Part shown: piece by piece, positions 27,545 through 38,189 of the stretch
How the letters are laid out: each line of letters opens with the position of its first letter
Numbering within the stretch: position 1 is the first letter of the stretch
Source of the DNA: Aristophania vespae
GTDB lineage: Bacteria > Pseudomonadota > Alphaproteobacteria > Acetobacterales > Acetobacteraceae
Reading direction: 5' to 3'
NCBI RefSeq assembly: GCF_009906835.1
Contig: NZ_CP047652.1
Span: 629,001 to 693,000 of the forward strand
Length of the DNA stretch: 64,000 bases
Notes under the pieces: generated by a model
What the model saw: the letters and a program-made list of their open reading frames with translations, nothing else
The model's database searches: none
Told to the model about the DNA's origin: nothing
Translations under genes and position numbers: made by a program

Positions 27545-28189
27545 ATGAAGTCTTCCAATCAACCTCGGAATGCTCTTGATGCTGAAAGCGTAAAAGAGGC
27601 TTATCGGCGCTGGGCAGGGGTGTATGATACAGTTTTTGGTGGAGTTTCAGCTTTTGGGCGGCGTAGAGCTGTTGCTGCTGTAAATTCCCTGCCAGGGAAA
27701 AAAGTGCTGGAAGTTGGTGTGGGCACCGGATTGGCTTTGCCCTTATATAATCGCGACAAACAAATCACAGGCATAGATCTTTCCAAAGATATGCTTAAAA
27801 AAGCCCGCCAGCGTGTTATTAATGCTGAGCTGCATAATGTAGATGACCTCCTTGAAATGGATGCAGAAGCGATTAGCTTTCAAAATGATAGTTTTGATAT
27901 TGCTGTTGCCATGTTCGTTGCTTCGGTCGCACCGCATCCTAAAGTTTTGCTTGAAGAATTAAAAAGAGTCGTCAAACCTGGCGGTCATATCCTTTTTGTA
28001 AATCACTTTCTTGCTCAGGGAGGTTTTAGGCTAAAAATAGAGCAGCTTATGGCAACAGCTTCCAAGGCATTAGGGTGGCACCCAGATTTCGCTTTGGAAA
28101 ACTTACTTTCAGAGCAGGATTTGCAAAAAGCGACAATTATGCCTGTGCCACCTGCTGGACTTTTTACCCTCGTGACATTACCTCAATAA
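27545..28189 (+). CDS. Class I SAM methyltransferase, PmtA-like (phosphatidylethanolamine N-methyltransferase)
   Basis: This is a 214 aa SAM-dependent methyltransferase. Motif I is VLEVGVGTGLALPLY, the acidic end of strand 2 is ITGIDLSKDML and motif III is VKPGGHILFVNHF. The opening YRRWAGVYDTVFGG and the overall pattern resemble bacterial PmtA enzymes that convert phosphatidylethanolamine to phosphatidylcholine, a lipid common in acetic acid bacteria. UbiE-type methyltransferases are the alternative. Substrate assignment is inference; the methyltransferase fold is clear. It stands alone before the cox-derived cluster. Confidence 0.7.
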   Translation: MKSSNQPRNALDAESVKEAYRRWAGVYDTVFGGVSAFGRRRAVAAVNSLPGKKVLEVGVGTGLALPLYNRDKQITGIDLSKDMLKKARQRVINAELHNVDDLLEMDAEAISFQNDSFDIAVAMFVASVAPHPKVLLEELKRVVKPGGHILFVNHFLAQGGFRLKIEQLMATASKALGWHPDFALENLLSEQDLQKATIMPVPPAGLFTLVTLPQ

Positions 28190-28317: not shown

Positions 28318-29547
28318 ATGATCGACTATTCAAAGAAATACCCTAAGTTTTTTTTCACCCGCGATAGCCTTATAGGCGCAGCTTTTTTGATATTGGCTTT
28401 ATTTGCGGGATTATTAGGCGGCGCTATGATGCTTCCTTTTATAGAAATTAGGCCTAGTTCTGGGATAGTCGTTAGCCATATGCTGCTTATGGCCTTTTTT
28501 GTTATTACACCCGGTATTTTAGGAGGCATGGCTTACTGGCTTTTGCCGCAGTCATTAGGAGCGCAGAAAATGGCGCTCCCTGTAGCCTCCTTAATAGCAT
28601 GGCTGTTATTGGCTATAAGCGTTATTATTCTTCCTTTAGTGCCAGTTTTGGGCCTGATTTTGTGGTCTATATCCATGGTTGCATTGTCGATTGATCTTAT
28701 TGCGACAATTTTAGAAGAGCGTGTGAAAAAATTTAGGCAGCTTTCACCAATAGTGTGGTCTTTTCTTTTCAGTGCTATTAGCCTGCTTCTTATGGCGCCT
28801 ATAATATTGGCTCTTATTGTTAAAGGGAAAATTGACTTTAACTCAGCATATTCTCTGATGTTATTTTTCAAAATTCCCGAAATGAGCTTTTTACTTTTGC
28901 CTGCTCTTGGAGTAGTGGCGGAAGCTCTTTCGCCTTTTAAAGAAAATTTAACAATAAAATTAGCCCCTTATATAATGGGTATTATCGGTCTGGTTGCACC
29001 GACTTTATGGATTCAGACGCTATTTTGTGCTTTGCCGCATGGTTTCCTGAATTATATTATGCCTTTATCTCAGATTGTGCCTGCAATGGTTTTTCTGGCC
29101 TGTCTGTGCAGCTCTCTATGGAATGCTTCATTCAAGCGTGGCGCTGCTCCATTCTGGGCTCTTAATGCTATGATTTTGCTATTTTTGGGGGGAATGTGCT
29201 CACTTTTTATTCCACCTTCATATACAGCATTATCTGTGCTGGGAGATATAAGCCACGGCCATCAGGCCATCATATTTGGTAGTGTTATGGCGCTCTGTGC
29301 TGGGTTCTATGCCTGGCTCTCTCAGCTATTTTCTGAGATGTCCAAAAGCTTTACACAAGCTGGCATTGCTCATGCTTTTCTCACATTATCTGCAATGCTC
29401 TGTTTTATGGTGCCTCAAATTCAGTGGCTTGCTATTACTTTGGCCGGCATTAGCTTACTGGGCTTTAGTATATTGGGTTTTCAGGCCTGCTTTATAATTA
29501 AGAAAAAGCAAATTATTTCTTTACAAAGGTCCTTTCCGAAAGGCTGA
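28318..29547 (+). CDS. Cytochrome c oxidase subunit I-like membrane protein lacking the CuB site
   Basis: This is a 409 aa protein with about 11-12 membrane segments. The first part matches the heme-copper oxidase subunit I pattern in helix 2: His54 in SHMLLMAFFVITPGILGG, then LP-x4-GAQKMALP, where oxidases have the low-spin heme histidine and GAPDMAFP. Helix 6 keeps P187-E188 (KIPEMSFLLLP), but the preceding CuB histidine is Ile186 and the cross-linked tyrosine is Ser190. The HH pair of helix 7 is gone. In helix 10 both heme histidines remain as His313 and His315 (HGH for HFH). So heme ligands are kept and all CuB ligands are lost. It is followed by ctaB after 6 bp. It may be a heme-binding relic with a new role; O2 reduction is unlikely. 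Confidence 0.7.
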   Translation: MIDYSKKYPKFFFTRDSLIGAAFLILALFAGLLGGAMMLPFIEIRPSSGIVVSHMLLMAFFVITPGILGGMAYWLLPQSLGAQKMALPVASLIAWLLLAISVIILPLVPVLGLILWSISMVALSIDLIATILEERVKKFRQLSPIVWSFLFSAISLLLMAPIILALIVKGKIDFNSAYSLMLFFKIPEMSFLLLPALGVVAEALSPFKENLTIKLAPYIMGIIGLVAPTLWIQTLFCALPHGFLNYIMPLSQIVPAMVFLACLCSSLWNASFKRGAAPFWALNAMILLFLGGMCSLFIPPSYTALSVLGDISHGHQAIIFGSVMALCAGFYAWLSQLFSEMSKSFTQAGIAHAFLTLSAMLCFMVPQIQWLAITLAGISLLGFSILGFQACFIIKKKQIISLQRSFPKG

Positions 29548-29553
29548 AAAACT

Positions 29554-30516
29554 GTGGCACACTCTGTAAGCTCACTATCTTATATAGCTCGTTTGAAAGA
29601 GCTTTTTAAAATTGAGGGGCAGGATGGAGATGCCTCACTTAAAGAATGGGTGAGCTTATTGAAGCCACGCGTTATTTCTTTAGTTGTGTTTACAGGATGG
29701 GCGGGTATGGCCGTTGCCCCCCATCAACCGTCTTTTATGATTGGTCTTATTACCATTACATGTATTTGCCTTGGTGCCGGAGCGGCAGGGGCTATTAATA
29801 TGTGGTATGACCGCGATATAGATGCAGTGATGAAGCGCACGTCAGTAAGACCGGTGCCATCTGGGCGTGTATCTCCTGAAAGCACATTAATTTTTGCAAT
29901 TGTTCTTTCTGTTATTTCTGTGCTGATGCTGTGGTTTGCTACTAATCTTTTGGCAGCCTTTATTCTTGCTTTTTCGATCTTTTTTTACGGTGTGGTTTAT
30001 ACAATGTGGCTTAAACGCCGCACACCTCAAAATATTGTAATTGGTGGTGCAGCTGGTGCGTTCCCGCCCATGATTGGGTGGGCAGCAACAATGAATTCGC
30101 TTGATGTGCTGCCGATAGCCATGTTTGCAATTGTTTTTTTATGGACTCCACCTCATTTCTGGTCCCTTTCGCTTTATGCTTGTAAAGATTATGACCGGGC
30201 AGGTATTCCTATGCTACCTGTCATAAAAGGGGCTCGTTATACACGGTGGAATATTTTTATATATACATTAATACTCACTGTTGTATCATTAGTACCAAGC
30301 GCTGTTGGGCAATGTGGGTGGTTTTATACTGTCTCTGCTTTACTGCTTGATGGTGGTTTTATTTTGTTTGCGTTAAAAGTTCTTCTTGACCAACAGGACG
30401 AAAAAGGGGTTAGCTTAACTGCGGATAAACCGGCGCGTTTTGCATTTAGATATTCTTTGGCTTATCTATTCTTCCTCTTTAGCGCCCTGCTTATTGATAG
30501 GATGTTGTTATCATGA
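29554..30516 (+). CDS. ctaB: Protoheme IX farnesyltransferase (heme O synthase)
   Basis: CtaB (CyoE) attaches a farnesyl group to heme b to form heme O, needed by bo3-type ubiquinol oxidases and as precursor of heme A. The 320 aa polytopic protein has the prenyltransferase aspartate motif NMWYDRDIDAVMKRT, the second region YDRAGIPMLPV and about nine membrane segments. It starts at GTG 29554 soon after the COX1-like gene and overlaps a 39-codon CoxF-like gene. Its position is the usual one in an alphaproteobacterial cox operon, although coxB, ctaG and coxC are absent here. Confidence 0.96.
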   Translation: MAHSVSSLSYIARLKELFKIEGQDGDASLKEWVSLLKPRVISLVVFTGWAGMAVAPHQPSFMIGLITITCICLGAGAAGAINMWYDRDIDAVMKRTSVRPVPSGRVSPESTLIFAIVLSVISVLMLWFATNLLAAFILAFSIFFYGVVYTMWLKRRTPQNIVIGGAAGAFPPMIGWAATMNSLDVLPIAMFAIVFLWTPPHFWSLSLYACKDYDRAGIPMLPVIKGARYTRWNIFIYTLILTVVSLVPSAVGQCGWFYTVSALLLDGGFILFALKVLLDQQDEKGVSLTADKPARFAFRYSLAYLFFLFSALLIDRMLLS

Positions 30517-30632
30517 TGAGCGAGCATGATCTGTCAACACGTCGCAGAATAAGTCGGCTTTTGGGAATAGTAATAGGGCTTTTGATTATTGCCCTGGCTC
30601 TTTTTAATATTGCTCTGTCCCGGCTCTGCTAA
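30513..30632 (+). CDS. CoxF-like small single-pass membrane protein
   Basis: This 39-codon gene starts at ATG 30513, overlapping the ctaB stop by 4 bp (ATGA). It encodes a short basic N-terminus (residues 3-17, ending RRRISR) and one strongly hydrophobic helix (LLGIVIGLLIIALALF). In many alphaproteobacteria a short protein of this shape, CoxF, sits directly after ctaB and before ctaG. The match is by size, topology and position rather than by residues. A perfect intrinsic terminator follows 47 bp later, so the operon ends here. Confidence 0.6.
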   Translation: MMSEHDLSTRRRISRLLGIVIGLLIIALALFNIALSRLC

Positions 30633-30712: not shown

Positions 30713-31792
30713 TTATCCAGCCTGTTGAATAGCAGAGAGAACCCAATTTCCTCTTCTATAAGTACGGACAAAAGTCCATAATTCGGTAATGGTTTGCGGC
30801 TCAGTGTGGCTACCATCAATGACATTACCCAAGCTATCTATAGTGACATCAAAAAGAGAATAACGCATCGCGACTGTGGCATATGTAAAGCGACCTTCAC
30901 GCCACGTTTCTGATAAATCACCATGTAAGAATTGCACGTTAGAAACTATATTACGTGCACCGCGATTTGCTAAATCGGCAAGCTGCTCGTTGAAATATTG
31001 TGCCATTTCGGGGGTTGTCATGGCTCTAATGGCGTTTAGATTTTGAGCACTCCAGGCGGCTTGTATATTTAAAAGCAAAGCCTGAAACGTGATGTAATCT
31101 TGGAACTTTATTGAAAGGAGCATATCAAGTTTTTGTTCAAGATTTTCCTTAAATGCATTCAGACTTTGCGTTGCAGCGTTAGATTGGTCTGACCCTTTGC
31201 GCATTTCTATAACAAAGGTAACGAAGAAAATGATAACCAAAAATTGAGTTAAAATTCCAAAAACTGACCACCCGTTAGAAAAGCCTCCAAAGAGACCATC
31301 TCCACTTAAAAGGCCAAATAAACCGGCACCAAAAAATCCTCCAGTAAATCCTGCCCTAACTGGATGACGATCAGCATAAGAGGGGCGATGAGCCTTAGTT
31401 ATGGAAAAGCGTTCCAGCATTTCTGGTGCGCTAGAATTAGTTCCATTGCTGGTTTCAGTATCAGATTGACGAGGTGAATCTAAAGGCTCCGTGCGATGAG
31501 AATGAGAACGCGGAAGAATTGGCGTTGTTTTAGGGATGATTCGTGTGTGCGAGCGTTCCACCGTGCTAGTGTCATGTGGCGTGTCTATAGTGGGCTGGCG
31601 CGGTGTTACCGAACGCTCTATGGGAGCTGACCAATGTGGGGTGCTATATGTCCTACTAGGAGAACTCCATGTATGAGAGCCCCGGCTTCCAAAAGAAGAT
31701 CCCCTGCCTGCACGGGCTAAACTATAGGGTGACTGAATGAGCAGAAGTACTGTTAGCAAGCCTAATATAAAAAAACATGAAAATTTACCCAT
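30713..31792 (-). CDS. Tim44-like domain protein, copy A
   Basis: This is a 359 aa protein. An N-terminal signal-type hydrophobic segment (residues 4-26) is followed by a Ser/Arg/Thr/Pro-rich region (about 30-140), a glycine-rich membrane stretch (GFFGAGLFGLLSGDGLFGG, then VFGILTQFLVIIFFVTFVI) and a C-terminal Tim44-like domain (about 220-355) with IQAAWSAQNLNAIRAMTTPEMAQYF. The domain family includes membrane-associated proteins linked to protein import, but this bacterial group has no fixed function. It is a paralogue of the gene at 32142-33074, longer by an insertion in the low-complexity region. Both copies are intact. Confidence 0.82.
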   Translation of the reverse strand: MGKFSCFFILGLLTVLLLIQSPYSLARAGRGSSFGSRGSHTWSSPSRTYSTPHWSAPIERSVTPRQPTIDTPHDTSTVERSHTRIIPKTTPILPRSHSHRTEPLDSPRQSDTETSNGTNSSAPEMLERFSITKAHRPSYADRHPVRAGFTGGFFGAGLFGLLSGDGLFGGFSNGWSVFGILTQFLVIIFFVTFVIEMRKGSDQSNAATQSLNAFKENLEQKLDMLLSIKFQDYITFQALLLNIQAAWSAQNLNAIRAMTTPEMAQYFNEQLADLANRGARNIVSNVQFLHGDLSETWREGRFTYATVAMRYSLFDVTIDSLGNVIDGSHTEPQTITELWTFVRTYRRGNWVLSAIQQAG

Positions 31793-32141: not shown

Positions 32142-33074
32142 TTATCCAGCTTGTTGAATGGCAGAGAGAACCCAATTTCCCCTTCCATCAGCACGGACAA
32201 AAGTCCAAAGCTCGGTAACGGTTTGCGGTTCAGTCTGGCTGCCATCAATGACATTACCCAAGCTGTCTGTAGTGACATCAAGAAGAGAATAACGCATTGC
32301 AACTGTGGCATAGGTAAAGCTACCCTCACGCCATGCTTCTGATAAATCACCCTGTAAGAATTGCACGTTAGAAACTATATTACGTGCACCACGACTTGCT
32401 AAATCAGAAAGTTGCTCGCTGAAATATTGTGCCATTTCAGGGGTTGTCATGGCCTTGATGGCGTTTAGGTTTTGGGCACTCCAGGCTGCCTGTATGTTTA
32501 AAAGCAGCGTTTGAAAAACATTGTAATCTTCAGCCCCTAATGAAACTGGCATAGTCTGCTGTGGCTCAAAGCCTGTATTTGGCATGTTTGTCATAGTGCT
32601 AGGTTGAGATGGCCTTCTCCATAACCGTCTGATTAGTGAAATAAAGAAGACGATAATCAGAACCTGAATTATGATTCCAAAAAAAGACCAGCCATTGGAA
32701 AAGCCTCCCAAAAAACCATGTCCGCTTAAAAGACCAAATAAACCAGCTCCAAGAAAGCCGCCAGCAAGTCCTGTCATAATAGGGTGACGGGCTGCAAAAG
32801 AGGGGCGGTAGGCGCCGGCCATAGGAGAGCGTCCCATCATGCCAGGGCCAGCGCCATATGGAGCTCTTGTAGCAGGTTGGCGCGGTGTTACGGAACGCTC
32901 CATGGGCCGTGACCAGTTAGGGGTAATGGAGGTTCTTTTGGGAGCACTCCATGTATGTAAGCCGCGGCTACCGAAAGAAGAACCCCTGCCTGCACGGGCC
33001 AAACTATCGGGTGTCTGAATGAGCAGAGGTACTGTCAGCAAGCCTAATAGAAGAGAGCGTGAAAATTTACCCAT
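32142..33074 (-). CDS. Tim44-like domain protein, copy B
   Basis: This is a 310 aa paralogue of the gene at 30713-31792, with the same order: signal-type N-terminus (about 1-27), an Arg/Ser/Pro-rich linker, a glycine-rich hydrophobic region (GGFLGAGLFGLLSGHGFLGG) and a C-terminal Tim44-like domain (about 170-305). The last 100 residues are almost the same in both copies. The linker is about 50 residues shorter here. It lies only 3 bp after tldE and is probably the ancestral copy, because it is attached to the intact tldE gene. Confidence 0.83.
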   Translation of the reverse strand: MGKFSRSLLLGLLTVPLLIQTPDSLARAGRGSSFGSRGLHTWSAPKRTSITPNWSRPMERSVTPRQPATRAPYGAGPGMMGRSPMAGAYRPSFAARHPIMTGLAGGFLGAGLFGLLSGHGFLGGFSNGWSFFGIIIQVLIIVFFISLIRRLWRRPSQPSTMTNMPNTGFEPQQTMPVSLGAEDYNVFQTLLLNIQAAWSAQNLNAIKAMTTPEMAQYFSEQLSDLASRGARNIVSNVQFLQGDLSEAWREGSFTYATVAMRYSLLDVTTDSLGNVIDGSQTEPQTVTELWTFVRADGRGNWVLSAIQQAG

Positions 33075-33077
33075 GAA

Positions 33078-34424
33078 TTAAAGTCCTGCAATAGTCATTC
33101 CGTCAATTCGGACAGAAGGGGCGTTGATGATGTGTTCAATGAAAAGGTCATTGCCTGGTTCTAGCCGAGCAAACATATCATTTAAATTACCAGCAATGGT
33201 AAACCCGGAGAGAGGCTCGGCGATTTTTCCGTTTCTGATCATAAAACCAGAAGCACCGCGGCTATAATCTCCGGTTAAAAGATTAACTGCATTGCCCATC
33301 ATTTCCGTGATTAATATGCCTTCACTAACGTCGTTCATTAATTGTTCTGGTGAAAGTGAACCAGGGCGTAATGTCACATTACTGACCCCAGGATGAGGCA
33401 TTGATTTATATGATCTAACTGCATGACCATTAGATAGTAAGCCCAACTGGCGGGCACAACGTGTATCAAGCAGCCAATTTTTCAGTGCGCCATTTTCAAC
33501 AAGATTTAAATGAGTAGTATGGTTGCCTTCCATATCAAAAGGCCGAGAACCAAGCCCTCTAAGGCGTAATGGATTATCTTCAATCGTGACAGAAGGTGAG
33601 AAAATATCCTGTCCCATTTTTTCTGTTAAAAAAGAAGTTTTTTGAACAATTGCGGCCCCATTAAGCGCACTGACTAAATGCCCTATTAAAGAAGGGGAAA
33701 CACGTCGATCAAATATAAGGGGTAGAGAGGCTGTTTTAGGTTTTTTTGGATTTAGCCGGCGTAAGGCGCGTTCTGCAGCCTCACGACCAAGCTCTTCGAT
33801 TGATCTGAGATCAGAAAAATGAAGGGCGCTATGGCTCGCATAATCACGCTCCATTGCCTCACCATGACCAGCAACGACACTTATGGCCCTACTAAAATGA
33901 GTGCGTTTAAAATAATGCTGGAAACCATTGGTAGAGGCATATCCCGTCAGGCTCGAACCATAGCCAGCGGATGAGCCATTACTATTGGTGATATTCTTGT
34001 GATCAAGAGCAATTTGTTCCATCTCATAGGCTTGCTCTACTAAAGATTTTGTATCTAAGGCTGTTTCTCTATCGACCAAATCAAGCTGATCAACAGCATG
34101 AGCATCAAGTTTTTTTGGTGAAGCTTCTGGAAGACCATCATAAGGAGAGTCAGGGAGAGCATCAGCCATGGCACAGGCACGCTCTGCACAGTGGCGAAGA
34201 GCTTCTTTTGAAAGGTCATTACTGGATATTAAAGCCAGCTTTTTTCCTTTAAAGACACGCAACCCCAGACCGAGCTGTTCTGAATGTTTGATACCTTCAA
34301 TAACGCCTTTGCGGACGAGAGCGCTATTGCTCTCACTTTGTGATATCATAGCATCAGCTTGATCGGCGCCACAAAGTCGAGCCTGTTCAAGAGCCTGGTT
34401 AAGTAGCGTGTCAATATTCTTCAT
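33078..34424 (-). CDS. pmbA: Metalloprotease TldE/PmbA
   Basis: This is a 448 aa member of the TldD/PmbA (TldE) family, which forms a heterodimeric protease that trims modified peptides and unfolded proteins. Typical segments are SAGYGSSLTGYASTNG, the middle-domain LIFDRRVSPSLIGHL and the C-terminal LLTGDYSRGASGFMIRNG. The HExxH motif belongs to the TldD partner and is not expected here. No tldD is in this window. It overlaps the upstream M16 peptidase stop by one base, so the two are coupled. Confidence 0.92.
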   Translation of the reverse strand: MKNIDTLLNQALEQARLCGADQADAMISQSESNSALVRKGVIEGIKHSEQLGLGLRVFKGKKLALISSNDLSKEALRHCAERACAMADALPDSPYDGLPEASPKKLDAHAVDQLDLVDRETALDTKSLVEQAYEMEQIALDHKNITNSNGSSAGYGSSLTGYASTNGFQHYFKRTHFSRAISVVAGHGEAMERDYASHSALHFSDLRSIEELGREAAERALRRLNPKKPKTASLPLIFDRRVSPSLIGHLVSALNGAAIVQKTSFLTEKMGQDIFSPSVTIEDNPLRLRGLGSRPFDMEGNHTTHLNLVENGALKNWLLDTRCARQLGLLSNGHAVRSYKSMPHPGVSNVTLRPGSLSPEQLMNDVSEGILITEMMGNAVNLLTGDYSRGASGFMIRNGKIAEPLSGFTIAGNLNDMFARLEPGNDLFIEHIINAPSVRIDGMTIAGL

Positions 34425-35686
34425 TAAGAAAGTATCTCGTGAATTTCTTGAGGTGTGGGGATATTTTCTGCCAGGCCCATCGTCGTGACTGTTGGCTCTG
34501 CACTAAAAATTTTATGGGCAATACGCACGATGTCAGCATCTGTAACATTATCGATGCGTTCAACAGTTTCTGCTGTGGGGATGACGCGGCCATAAAGCTG
34601 TAATTGCCGCCCAATTTGTGCACAGCGGCTTCCAGCACTTTCTAGAGACATAAGTAGCGAAGCTTTTAGCTGAGTGCGCGCGCGTGCAAGTTCTTCGGTT
34701 GTGACCCCATCAAATAGCCGGCGTAATTCATGTAATATGGCTGGCACAAGCTCACCTGTTTTTTCAGGGCCAGTACCTGCATATAGACCGAAAATGCCAT
34801 TATCATCAAAGGGACTTGCAAAACTATATACGCTATAAACTAAACCGCGCTTTTCACGAATTTCCTGAAAAAGACGTGATGACATGCCTCCACCGAGCAA
34901 AGTGGAAAGAACCATAGAGCCATAATAATCATCATTTCTATAGCCAGGGCAGGGGAACCCTAACAGAAAATGAACCTGGTCTAATTTACGTGGCGTTTGA
35001 TGTATGCCCCCAACATATTGAGACGGTACAGCCTGAGGAGGGATATGTGTTGCCAGATCAGCAAAATGCTTTTCAACTAGTGCAACGACCTGTTTATGTT
35101 CGAGGTTGCCAGCAGCAGCAATAACAGTGTTATGGGTGCTGTAATGCTCATTCATATAAGAAATGAGCGTGTCCCGGCTCATTGATTGAACAATTTCCTC
35201 ACTTCCTAAAATGGGGCGCCCCATTGGTTGGTTGGGAAAAGCCTGTTCCTGGAAATAGTCAAAGATAATATCGTCTGGTGTATCGTTAGCTTGCCCTATT
35301 TCTTGTAAAATAACGCCTCTTTCGCGCTCAATTTCATCGGGACTAAAAACACTATGTGTTAAAATATCTCCGAGAATATCAATGCCTAGAGCAAGATCTT
35401 CTTTTAGCAGTTTAACGTAATAGGCTGTATTTTCACGTGCTGTATAGGCATTAATATGCCCACCGACATTTTCTATCTCTTCAGCAATTTGAGCTGCTGT
35501 CCGGCGTTTTGTGCCCTTAAAAGCCATATGCTCTAAAAAATGAGCAACACCATTATTAGAGGCGTTTTCATGGCGTGAGCCAGAAGCGACATAAACGCCA
35601 AACGAGACTGTTTCTACACGTTCGATGCGCTCTGTTACAATCCTCAGGCCATTGCTAAGGGTCGTTTGTTCAATAAGTGGACTCAT
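34424..35686 (-). CDS. M16-family zinc peptidase (insulinase / processing peptidase type)
   Basis: This 420 aa single-unit pitrilysin-family peptidase, like mitochondrial processing peptidase beta, carries the inverted zinc motif HFLEH (His49-His53), followed about 76 residues later by the glutamate region ERGVILQEIG. The R/Y pair region KRGLVYSVYSFASPF in the second domain is also present. In alphaproteobacteria such a gene commonly lies next to thrC, as here (24 bp after thrC). It has no signal peptide, so it acts in the cytoplasm. Its substrate is unknown. Confidence 0.92.
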   Translation of the reverse strand: MSPLIEQTTLSNGLRIVTERIERVETVSFGVYVASGSRHENASNNGVAHFLEHMAFKGTKRRTAAQIAEEIENVGGHINAYTARENTAYYVKLLKEDLALGIDILGDILTHSVFSPDEIERERGVILQEIGQANDTPDDIIFDYFQEQAFPNQPMGRPILGSEEIVQSMSRDTLISYMNEHYSTHNTVIAAAGNLEHKQVVALVEKHFADLATHIPPQAVPSQYVGGIHQTPRKLDQVHFLLGFPCPGYRNDDYYGSMVLSTLLGGGMSSRLFQEIREKRGLVYSVYSFASPFDDNGIFGLYAGTGPEKTGELVPAILHELRRLFDGVTTEELARARTQLKASLLMSLESAGSRCAQIGRQLQLYGRVIPTAETVERIDNVTDADIVRIAHKIFSAEPTVTTMGLAENIPTPQEIHEILS

Positions 35687-35710
35687 GAATGCCTATTTTT
35701 CAAAAATAAT

Positions 35711-37134
35711 TTATTGGTTTTGCACATGCGCTTTTATTGCATTTTGCACAGCAGCAAGATCATTAGGAAGAGTAATAAAGCGCTCTTGACGTGCAAATAA
35801 ATCTGCTAGATGTGGCGGTAAGGCTGCATCTTGTCCTGTTGCTTTTTTGACTGCGTCAGGAAATTTAGCAGGATGTGCGGTCGCGGCGACGATCATAGCA
35901 ATGTCAGCCTCTTTAAACTGACGTCCTGCTTCCAGGCCTATAGCACTATGAGGGTCGGCAATATAATGAGAGTTTTCGAAGAAGTGACGCATTGCCTGAA
36001 TAGTCTGCTCGTCATCTAGGCATGTTGCATTAAAGTTTTCGCGAATTTTTTCCCAAGCATCATGCGGAACAGCCATGCGGCCCGTTTGTCTGAATTCCTG
36101 CATGATCGCATTACAGCGATGCGGATCTTGCTCAAGCATTTCAAATAAGAGACGTTCAAAATTAGATGAAACCTGAATGTCCATTGAGGGTGACAGGCTA
36201 GGTTCAACGACTTGAACACTCATGTCATTACTCAGTAAAAAGCGGGTCAGAATATCATTTTTATTAGAACCAACCTGCAATTTTCTAATGGGTAACCCCA
36301 TCTGGCCAGCTGCCCATGCGGCTAATATATTGCCAAAATTACCTGTAGGCACTGCAAAAGAGACTGCGCGTTCTGGGGCACCTAATGTCAATGCCGAGCG
36401 AATATAATAGGGAATTTGGCAGGCGATGCGTGCCCAGTTAATAGAATTTACAGCAGAAAGAGAAACGCTTTGCCGGAAGTTTGAATCAGCAAACATGGCT
36501 TTGACCATGTCCTGACAATTATCAAAATCGCCTTCAATGGCGATATTGAGAACGTTATCATCCAGCACAGTTGTCATTTGTCTGCGCTGTACTTCTGACG
36601 TACGTCCTAGGGGTGCAAAATAACGATATTTACGCGTTTTTTGCCCTTAAATGCCTCAATGGCTGCCGAACCCGTATCACCAGATGTAGCACCTACGATC
36701 GTGACATATCGGTCTTCTCTTTCCAGCACATATTCAAATAGCTGGCCAAGCATCTGCATGGCCATGTCTTTGAAAGCCAGAGTTGGACCATGAAATAATT
36801 CAAGCGAGAAAAGACCCGTTTCGACTTCGTTTAGCGGAACAATTGCTGCGTGGGAAAAATTCTTATATGCCTCTCGGCTCATAGCTTTAAGAGCGTCAAG
36901 CTCAATGTCGCCAGCTGTGAATAGAGACAAAATTTCAGCGACCAGGTCGGGGTAGGAAAGACCGCGCCAATGGTTAAATGTCTCGCGTGAAATTTGAGGC
37001 CATGAAGTTGGCAGATATAAACCACCATCAGGTGCAAGGCCGCTAAGGAGGATATGAGAAAAAAGCAGGGCACTATGATTATCAGTGCCGCGCGTAGATC
37101 GATAATGCATAAGATCTCTATCGGTAGCAATCAT
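35711..37134 (-). pseudogene. thrC: Threonine synthase, interrupted by a 1-base frameshift
   Basis: ThrC converts O-phosphohomoserine to threonine with pyridoxal phosphate. The first frame gives the N-terminal domain MHYRSTRG and the PLP lysine Lys122 in TLAFKDMAMQ, then GATSGDTGSAAIEAFKGKKRVNIVILHP. The family text continues (GRTSEVQRRQMTTV) only in another frame. The switch is at the G4 run 36610-36613 (C4 on the coding strand), where one more C restores a 474 aa protein of normal length. The start at 37134 overlaps the stop of the upstream gene (ATGA). Assembly error is likely; otherwise the strain would be a threonine auxotroph. Confidence 0.92.
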
Positions 37135-38189
37135 GAAGGGAGGTCAATTTCAAGTAACTGAGGTGCTGCTAAAGAAGAATTGGCAGGGCTAGCTGAGTTT
37201 TTGTCACGCGCTTTAGTTAACACAATAAGCCCGCTTTTTGAATGAGGGTGCGTTGTACAAAGTGTCATGTCCTCTGCCTGAGTCAGTCTGGAATCATGTG
37301 CCAGGCGTGTAGGATGTTGATTTTTGATAATTTCAATTAAATCGCCATGCTCAACATCGATCATATATAAGGTGTCATCTTTTGTGATTGTCAGGCCACC
37401 TATACTATATTTATTGCGCCATTTATCCATGGCCTCAAGCAGCTCAGCAGGGCTTAATGAAGGGTCAGTCAGCAAGGCTGTGTCGATAGAGTAAAAGGGC
37501 CCTGCAGGTGTTTGATAAAAAAGCCTTTTACCATCATGGGTGAGTGCAAGATAACGGACATTTCCACCAGTTTTGACCTGCCCTTTGGCTGTTTTTTCAA
37601 GCTGGCCATCACGTTTATAGGGTCTTTGAGCACTCAGACTTTGGGACCATTCCAATACACGGCGTGCCTTGCCTGATTTTAGGTCAATAATAACAAGGGC
37701 AGGTGATCCTTCATCAGCCAAAAATGCAAATTCATCATTGACCTGAAGCGCAGAAAAACGGCTTTTTTCCACAATAACATTATGAAGGGAAATATGCCTT
37801 AAAACCGTACCATTGCCGGAAATGTTGTAAAGTTCGATCTCCGGGCCTTGAGAAACTGCCCACAGGCTTTTGTCATTCCCAGTGATAGCTGAAAAGCCCG
37901 GCAAGGTTGAAAAATTGCGAACTTGCCCATTTTTGAGGTCAATATTTGTAATTTTACCTTCTTTGTCTAGGCTATAAATTGTGCCATCGGCAAGAGATGT
38001 AATGACCGGCGATATTATATCAGAAACTTGAGGAAGCTCATAAATATGTAAGGTTTGTGACGTCCGGTCTGGCGCTTTTGCCGCGGTCAATGCCGATGTT
38101 TGTGTAGCAAAAGCCGGCGTTCCATAAAGGACAAATAAACACGCTAAAGGTGCAAATGATGAGCGAAATAGCAATGAAGGCATAATCAT
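37131..38189 (-). CDS. Periplasmic major royal jelly protein/yellow-like beta-propeller protein
   Basis: This is a 352 aa exported protein with a signal peptide (cleavage after about residue 28, AFA-TQ). Repeating short segments suggest a beta-propeller. The patterns FLADEGSPALVIIDLKSGKARRVLEW and LALTHDGKRLFYQTPAGPFYSIDTALL resemble bacterial members of the MRJP/yellow family (related to dopachrome conversion factors and royal jelly proteins). No catalytic residues can be assigned. Its stop overlaps the thrC start by 4 bp, so it is the first gene of the thrC-M16-tldE-Tim44 run. The assignment is by pattern and moderately sure. Confidence 0.6.
   Translation of the reverse strand: MIMPSLLFRSSFAPLACLFVLYGTPAFATQTSALTAAKAPDRTSQTLHIYELPQVSDIISPVITSLADGTIYSLDKEGKITNIDLKNGQVRNFSTLPGFSAITGNDKSLWAVSQGPEIELYNISGNGTVLRHISLHNVIVEKSRFSALQVNDEFAFLADEGSPALVIIDLKSGKARRVLEWSQSLSAQRPYKRDGQLEKTAKGQVKTGGNVRYLALTHDGKRLFYQTPAGPFYSIDTALLTDPSLSPAELLEAMDKWRNKYSIGGLTITKDDTLYMIDVEHGDLIEIIKNQHPTRLAHDSRLTQAEDMTLCTTHPHSKSGLIVLTKARDKNSASPANSSLAAPQLLEIDLPS

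Follow-up and report, generated by a model that had tools for sequence, protein, structure and literature searches.

The locus in Aristophania vespae

The window analysed here, a stretch of 64,000 nucleotides from the 2.02-Mb genome of Aristophania vespae, carries a ctaD-like gene (28318..29547, +) whose product is a predicted low-spin-heme-only pseudo-oxidase related to subunit I of the aa3 oxidases. Its open reading frame runs from ATG to TGA and encodes 409 residues. Seven bases past the stop codon begins ctaB (29554..30516, +), the gene for heme O synthase (TIGR01473, 330 bits; NF003349, 336 bits), which the original prediction had rightly listed as retained; the two genes adjoin in every carrier examined. 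The ctaB stop codon is overlapped by an ORF of 39 aa (30513..30632, +) that encodes a single helix and had been called CoxF-like. Similar ORFs follow ctaB in many relatives (14–54 bits), and by eye one also stands in a true COX operon (L079); a search of the 39-aa product against Pfam gave no family match.

The flanks of this COX remnant are conserved as well. A class I methyltransferase gene (27545..28189, +) forms the left flank, and an M16 peptidase gene with a frameshifted thrC (34424..36577, −) lies within the right flank. About 50 genomes share the order uvrB, greA, gshB, methyltransferase, ctaD-like, ctaB and, in many, the CoxF-like ORF, followed on the opposite strand by genes for a Tim44-like protein, pmbA, M16 and thrC. 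In A. vespae, thrC is read in two frames (window 35720–37143, −), which match residues 1–178 and 167–475 of a 477-aa protein of Acetobacteraceae bacterium ESL0709; either the gene is frameshifted in A. vespae or the assembly contains an indel. The Tim44-like gene (PF04280) is single at this locus in nearly all relatives, whereas A. vespae has two in tandem (window 30713–31792 and 32142–33074, −) with near-identical starts and ends. A 751-aa frame in one genome (G042) was considered as a possible fusion and rejected: it is a stop-to-stop artefact that overlaps the methyltransferase gene in another frame, and ctaB is separate there.

The history of the locus can be read from a 2.7-Mb genome of the same bacterial family (G100), which has an intact ctaC–ctaD–ctaB cluster at the same place, complete with COX2 domains, and a working-type COX set in which CtaG, CtaA and Surf1 are all present. 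The locus of the acetic acid bacteria is thus the old COX operon from which ctaC has gone and in which ctaD has been reduced.

Descent from an A-type subunit I

The product of the ctaD-like gene is a homologue of subunit I of the heme-copper oxidase superfamily. Its match to the Pfam COX1 family (PF00115) scores 61.2 bits (E 1.1e-16) where the curated threshold lies at 34.8, which bears out the homology first proposed by eye; against the CtaD equivalog model TIGR02891 it reaches 59 bits, below the threshold of 671. A search with the single sequence matched aa3 and mitochondrial COX1 chains in the PDB. A profile built from ten members matched the Rhodobacter aa3 structure 3om3 with an E-value of 2.7e-43 and the Paracoccus aa3 structure at about 1e-42, and the bo3 structures only at 3e-15. 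By hhalign, the family aligns with true CtaD of the Acetobacteraceae with a probability of 99.7. The strong preference for aa3 over bo3 identifies the ctaD-like gene as a descendant of A-type subunit I (CtaD) and not of the bo3 oxidase. CyoB belongs to the same superfamily and is probably where the heme O synthesised by the adjacent ctaB product ends up; it is encoded by a separate, intact gene elsewhere in the A. vespae genome (C1:707722, 483 bits).

A search of contigs yielded ESL0709, the named congener and nearest relative, as the sole relative (58% identity in the ctaD-like protein), and a search of whole genomes gave a wider set of homologues. In a phylogenetic tree, 58 ctaD-like genes cluster together, apart from true CtaD and CyoB (support 100/99), with long branches that make the branching inside the group unsure. 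An AlphaFold2 model, run with a two-sequence input and good for a helix count only, has 12 helices; with a pLDDT of 46 and a pTM of 0.37 it is too poor to define a heme pocket. The ctaD-like protein shares with A1-type subunit I (CtaD/CoxA) the twelve helices, the low-spin ligands in helices II and X and the COX locus. It differs in shortened loops and in the absence of the CuB ligands, the cross-linked tyrosine, a conserved high-spin ligand and the propionate arginine pair.

A second COX1-family protein, a 781-aa open frame, is encoded outside the window (G000:C1:1511979–1513334), and its size and score suggest a quinol-dependent nitric oxide reductase. A protein of this kind is the sole COX1-family match in three other genomes (G029, G066 and G116), and a 1.9-Mb genome of the same bacterial family (G070) has no COX1-family protein at the Pfam threshold.

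Heme and CuB ligands

The ligand positions were compared in an alignment of the 58 ctaD-like homologues from acetic acid bacteria with seven true CtaD from the same bacterial family, and the residues originally assigned in the A. vespae protein are correct. The two low-spin heme ligands, His54 in helix II (28477..28479, +) and His315 in helix X (29260..29262, +), are invariant (58/58). At the CuB histidine position of helix VI stands Ile186 (28873..28875, +), and at that of the cross-linked tyrosine Ser190 (28885..28887, +); neither the histidine nor the tyrosine is found in any of the 58. The helix VII His-His pair is replaced in A. vespae by Gln233-Thr234 (29014..29019, +), and its two positions hold histidine in 24/58 and 7/58 homologues. 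His313, at the high-spin heme position of helix X (29254..29256, +), is shared with one other homologue (L072) and is an arginine in ESL0709. With histidine in only 2/58, the three heme histidines noticed at first are all present in A. vespae but are not a family feature, which is the low-spin pair alone. The idea of a retained high-spin heme is further undercut by the loss of the tyrosine and of the propionate-loop arginine pair (Arg-Arg), which in true CtaD binds the propionates of the heme and occurs in none of the homologues. As far as the alignment tells, the oxygen-reducing binuclear centre is wholly lost from the family and the low-spin heme site alone survives; lacking both the CuB and the high-spin heme sites, the protein would be unable to reduce O2.

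The survival of the low-spin pair stands out from the general divergence of the family. Over 310 columns that are invariant in the seven true CtaD, retention in the ctaD-like homologues averages 27%, and just four of these columns persist in all 58: W147, W231, H54 and H315. The chance that two of four fully kept columns would be the low-spin histidines is about 1.3e-4. A further histidine, His352 in helix XI (window 29371–29373), is present in 51/58 relatives and shared by all the true CtaD; this position is not known to have a metal role.

The existence of the gene is already known. In Acetobacter, a degenerate ctaD beside ctaB has been reported as a 'deranged COX1-like protein' and as part of a partial COX cluster, ctaBD (PMC10715153, citing Matsutani 2014, BBA 1837:1810), and in A. 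pasteurianus ctaB and ctaD bear successive locus tags (PMC5158111). The gene described in that report is of the same kind, lies in the same place beside ctaB and encodes a non-working oxidase, for which a role connected with CtaB was guessed. The protein is described there as devoid of all metal-cofactor-binding residues (PMC10715153), a description that is contradicted by a low-spin pair present in 58/58 homologues; the family as aligned here differs from the published protein without any ligand in that this pair is invariant and most strongly selected. Within the searchable literature, which is incomplete, no earlier description was found of the conservation of the low-spin pair, of the helix-specific selection or of the co-loss described below, and nothing relevant came up when further subunit I proteins devoid of CuB were sought there.

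Purifying selection on the ctaD-like gene

The ctaD-like gene is under purifying selection. Stops inside the family matches were looked for in the 58 homologues, and no broken frame was found. Pooled over 16 close pairs, dN/dS is 0.125 (0.06–0.39 in single pairs), values that are indicative since the pairs are hand-picked close relatives. With helix limits taken from the low-confidence AlphaFold2 secondary structure, the ratio is lowest in the two helices that carry the heme histidines, at 0.027 in helix II (His54) and 0.042 in helix X (His315). In most pairs the ratio is about two to four times that of ctaB, yet far below 1. Both marks of a pseudogene, a broken frame and a neutral dN/dS, are thus absent, and comparison across the relatives, as originally proposed, revealed one selected family instead of neutral decay.

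These figures largely refute neutral decay, and a relic under weak selection, which had been offered as one reading of the gene, does not fit the pooled ratio and the unbroken frames. A decaying relic could still be maintained only because ctaB shares its message. Its faster evolution relative to ctaB would agree with this, as would the short distance to the ctaB start and a purine-rich possible ribosome site at the end of the ctaD-like gene. However, translational coupling would need the 3′ end only, and selection acts along the whole length of the gene, most strongly at the heme helices, in frames that are nowhere broken; we regard a relic of this sort as very improbable.

The same pattern bears on a scaffold, in which the ctaD-like protein would only stabilise CtaB in the membrane and play no cofactor role. 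A role in stabilising CtaB is a guess already in print (PMC10715153), and it would accord with the constant adjacency of ctaB and with the loss of the two genes together. A scaffold would not, however, predict that exactly the low-spin ligands are retained in every homologue or that dN/dS is lowest on the two helices that bear them, and the published picture of a protein without ligands is at odds with the alignment. We consider a pure scaffold unlikely, and favour instead a protein that holds heme.

Association with ctaB and the bo3 oxidase

Carriers of the ctaD-like gene mostly lack the usual assembly factors. CtaG, noted in the original prediction as lacking from the operon, is absent from the whole A. 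vespae genome, and it was found in 0/66 carriers when the ctaG list was compared with the carriers from the whole-genome search plus five more divergent ones. Surf1 was found in 0/13 carriers tested, and CtaA is missing in 10/11, A. vespae among the ten.

Four genomes (G029, G066, G070 and G116, of which G029 and G116 belong to the same genus) lack the bo3 oxidase (CyoB), ctaB and the ctaD-like gene alike. The locus is closed up in these genomes, with the methyltransferase gene leading directly to the Tim44-like or M16 gene. Together with the position of the gene beside ctaB wherever it is kept, this shared loss where bo3 has been lost speaks for a partnership with CtaB. The counterexample is G001 (L107), which keeps ctaB and two bo3-type oxidases, lacks the ctaD-like gene and has ctaB directly after the methyltransferase gene. 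CtaB is therefore not strictly dependent on the ctaD-like protein, and G001 is a natural knock-out for the gene.

The low-spin site might instead serve an independent b-type cytochrome that relays electrons within the membrane, with quinol as a possible donor to some other acceptor, its adjacency to ctaB being inherited from the old operon. The retention of the bis-His low-spin site alone would suit such a protein, and the gene order is ancestral, since G100 has ctaC–ctaD–ctaB at this place. Against this, the neighbourhood holds no partner redox gene, the locus no longer encodes subunit II, the CuA donor, and the disappearance of the gene along with ctaB and bo3 indicates a link to heme O. We judge an electron-transferring cytochrome of this kind improbable, more so than the scaffold, and prefer a protein tied to heme O.

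A possible role in heme O supply

The ctaD-like gene seems to be no dead relic and to encode a functional heme protein linked to the supply of heme O, which upholds the earlier idea of a repurposed heme-binding relative of ctaD connected with ctaB and bo3. Of the two roles suggested then, a heme O carrier may still prove right, whereas a sensor for the bo3 oxidase finds no support. In the explanation that we propose, the former COX-operon ctaD of acetic acid bacteria has been pared to a membrane cytochrome with a single heme. This low-spin heme would be bound by His54 and His315 and be of type b or o; heme A is not expected because the A. vespae genome lacks CtaA. Judged from the conserved residues, the protein very probably binds heme. 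In these bacteria, which are without the usual heme-handling factors Surf1, CtaG and mostly CtaA, its likeliest working role would be that of a membrane partner of CtaB, keeping hold of heme while this is made or delivered towards CyoB; this hand-off or partner role, drawn from synteny and co-loss, we put at slightly under an even chance.

A precedent for a partnership between CtaB and a heme protein is given by the complexes of CtaA with CtaB, which presumably pass on heme O (PMC9145763). CtaA/Cox15, the heme-containing membrane protein of these complexes, resembles the ctaD-like protein in role only; it belongs to a different protein family and is absent from the A. vespae genome. In the work of Matsutani from 2014, the CtaB of A. 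pasteurianus is said to have been functional alone in E. coli, which counts against a partner role. For the explanation as a whole, a single-heme cytochrome derived from ctaD that serves the CtaB/bo3 heme supply, we hold our confidence at one half because of the counterexample of G001, the evolutionary rate in excess of that of ctaB and the missing propionate arginines. More tentatively, the family might form, across the acetic acid bacteria, a hitherto unrecognised class of oxidase-derived single-heme proteins, heme-holding partners of CtaB that supply bo3 and replace the lost Surf1/CtaA/CtaG machinery.

For a gene dismissed as deranged, a specific prediction can now be put to the test, namely that its product is a low-spin heme protein with bis-His ligation. 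In E. coli, heme O synthase aside, no specific assembly protein is known for the bo3 oxidase (PMC9145763), and if the ctaD-like protein hands heme O to bo3, it would bear on this open question of assembly. If the proposal is true, it would also be a clear example in which a respiratory enzyme has given up catalysis and put a single remaining cofactor site to a new use, among bacteria known from industry and from insect guts.
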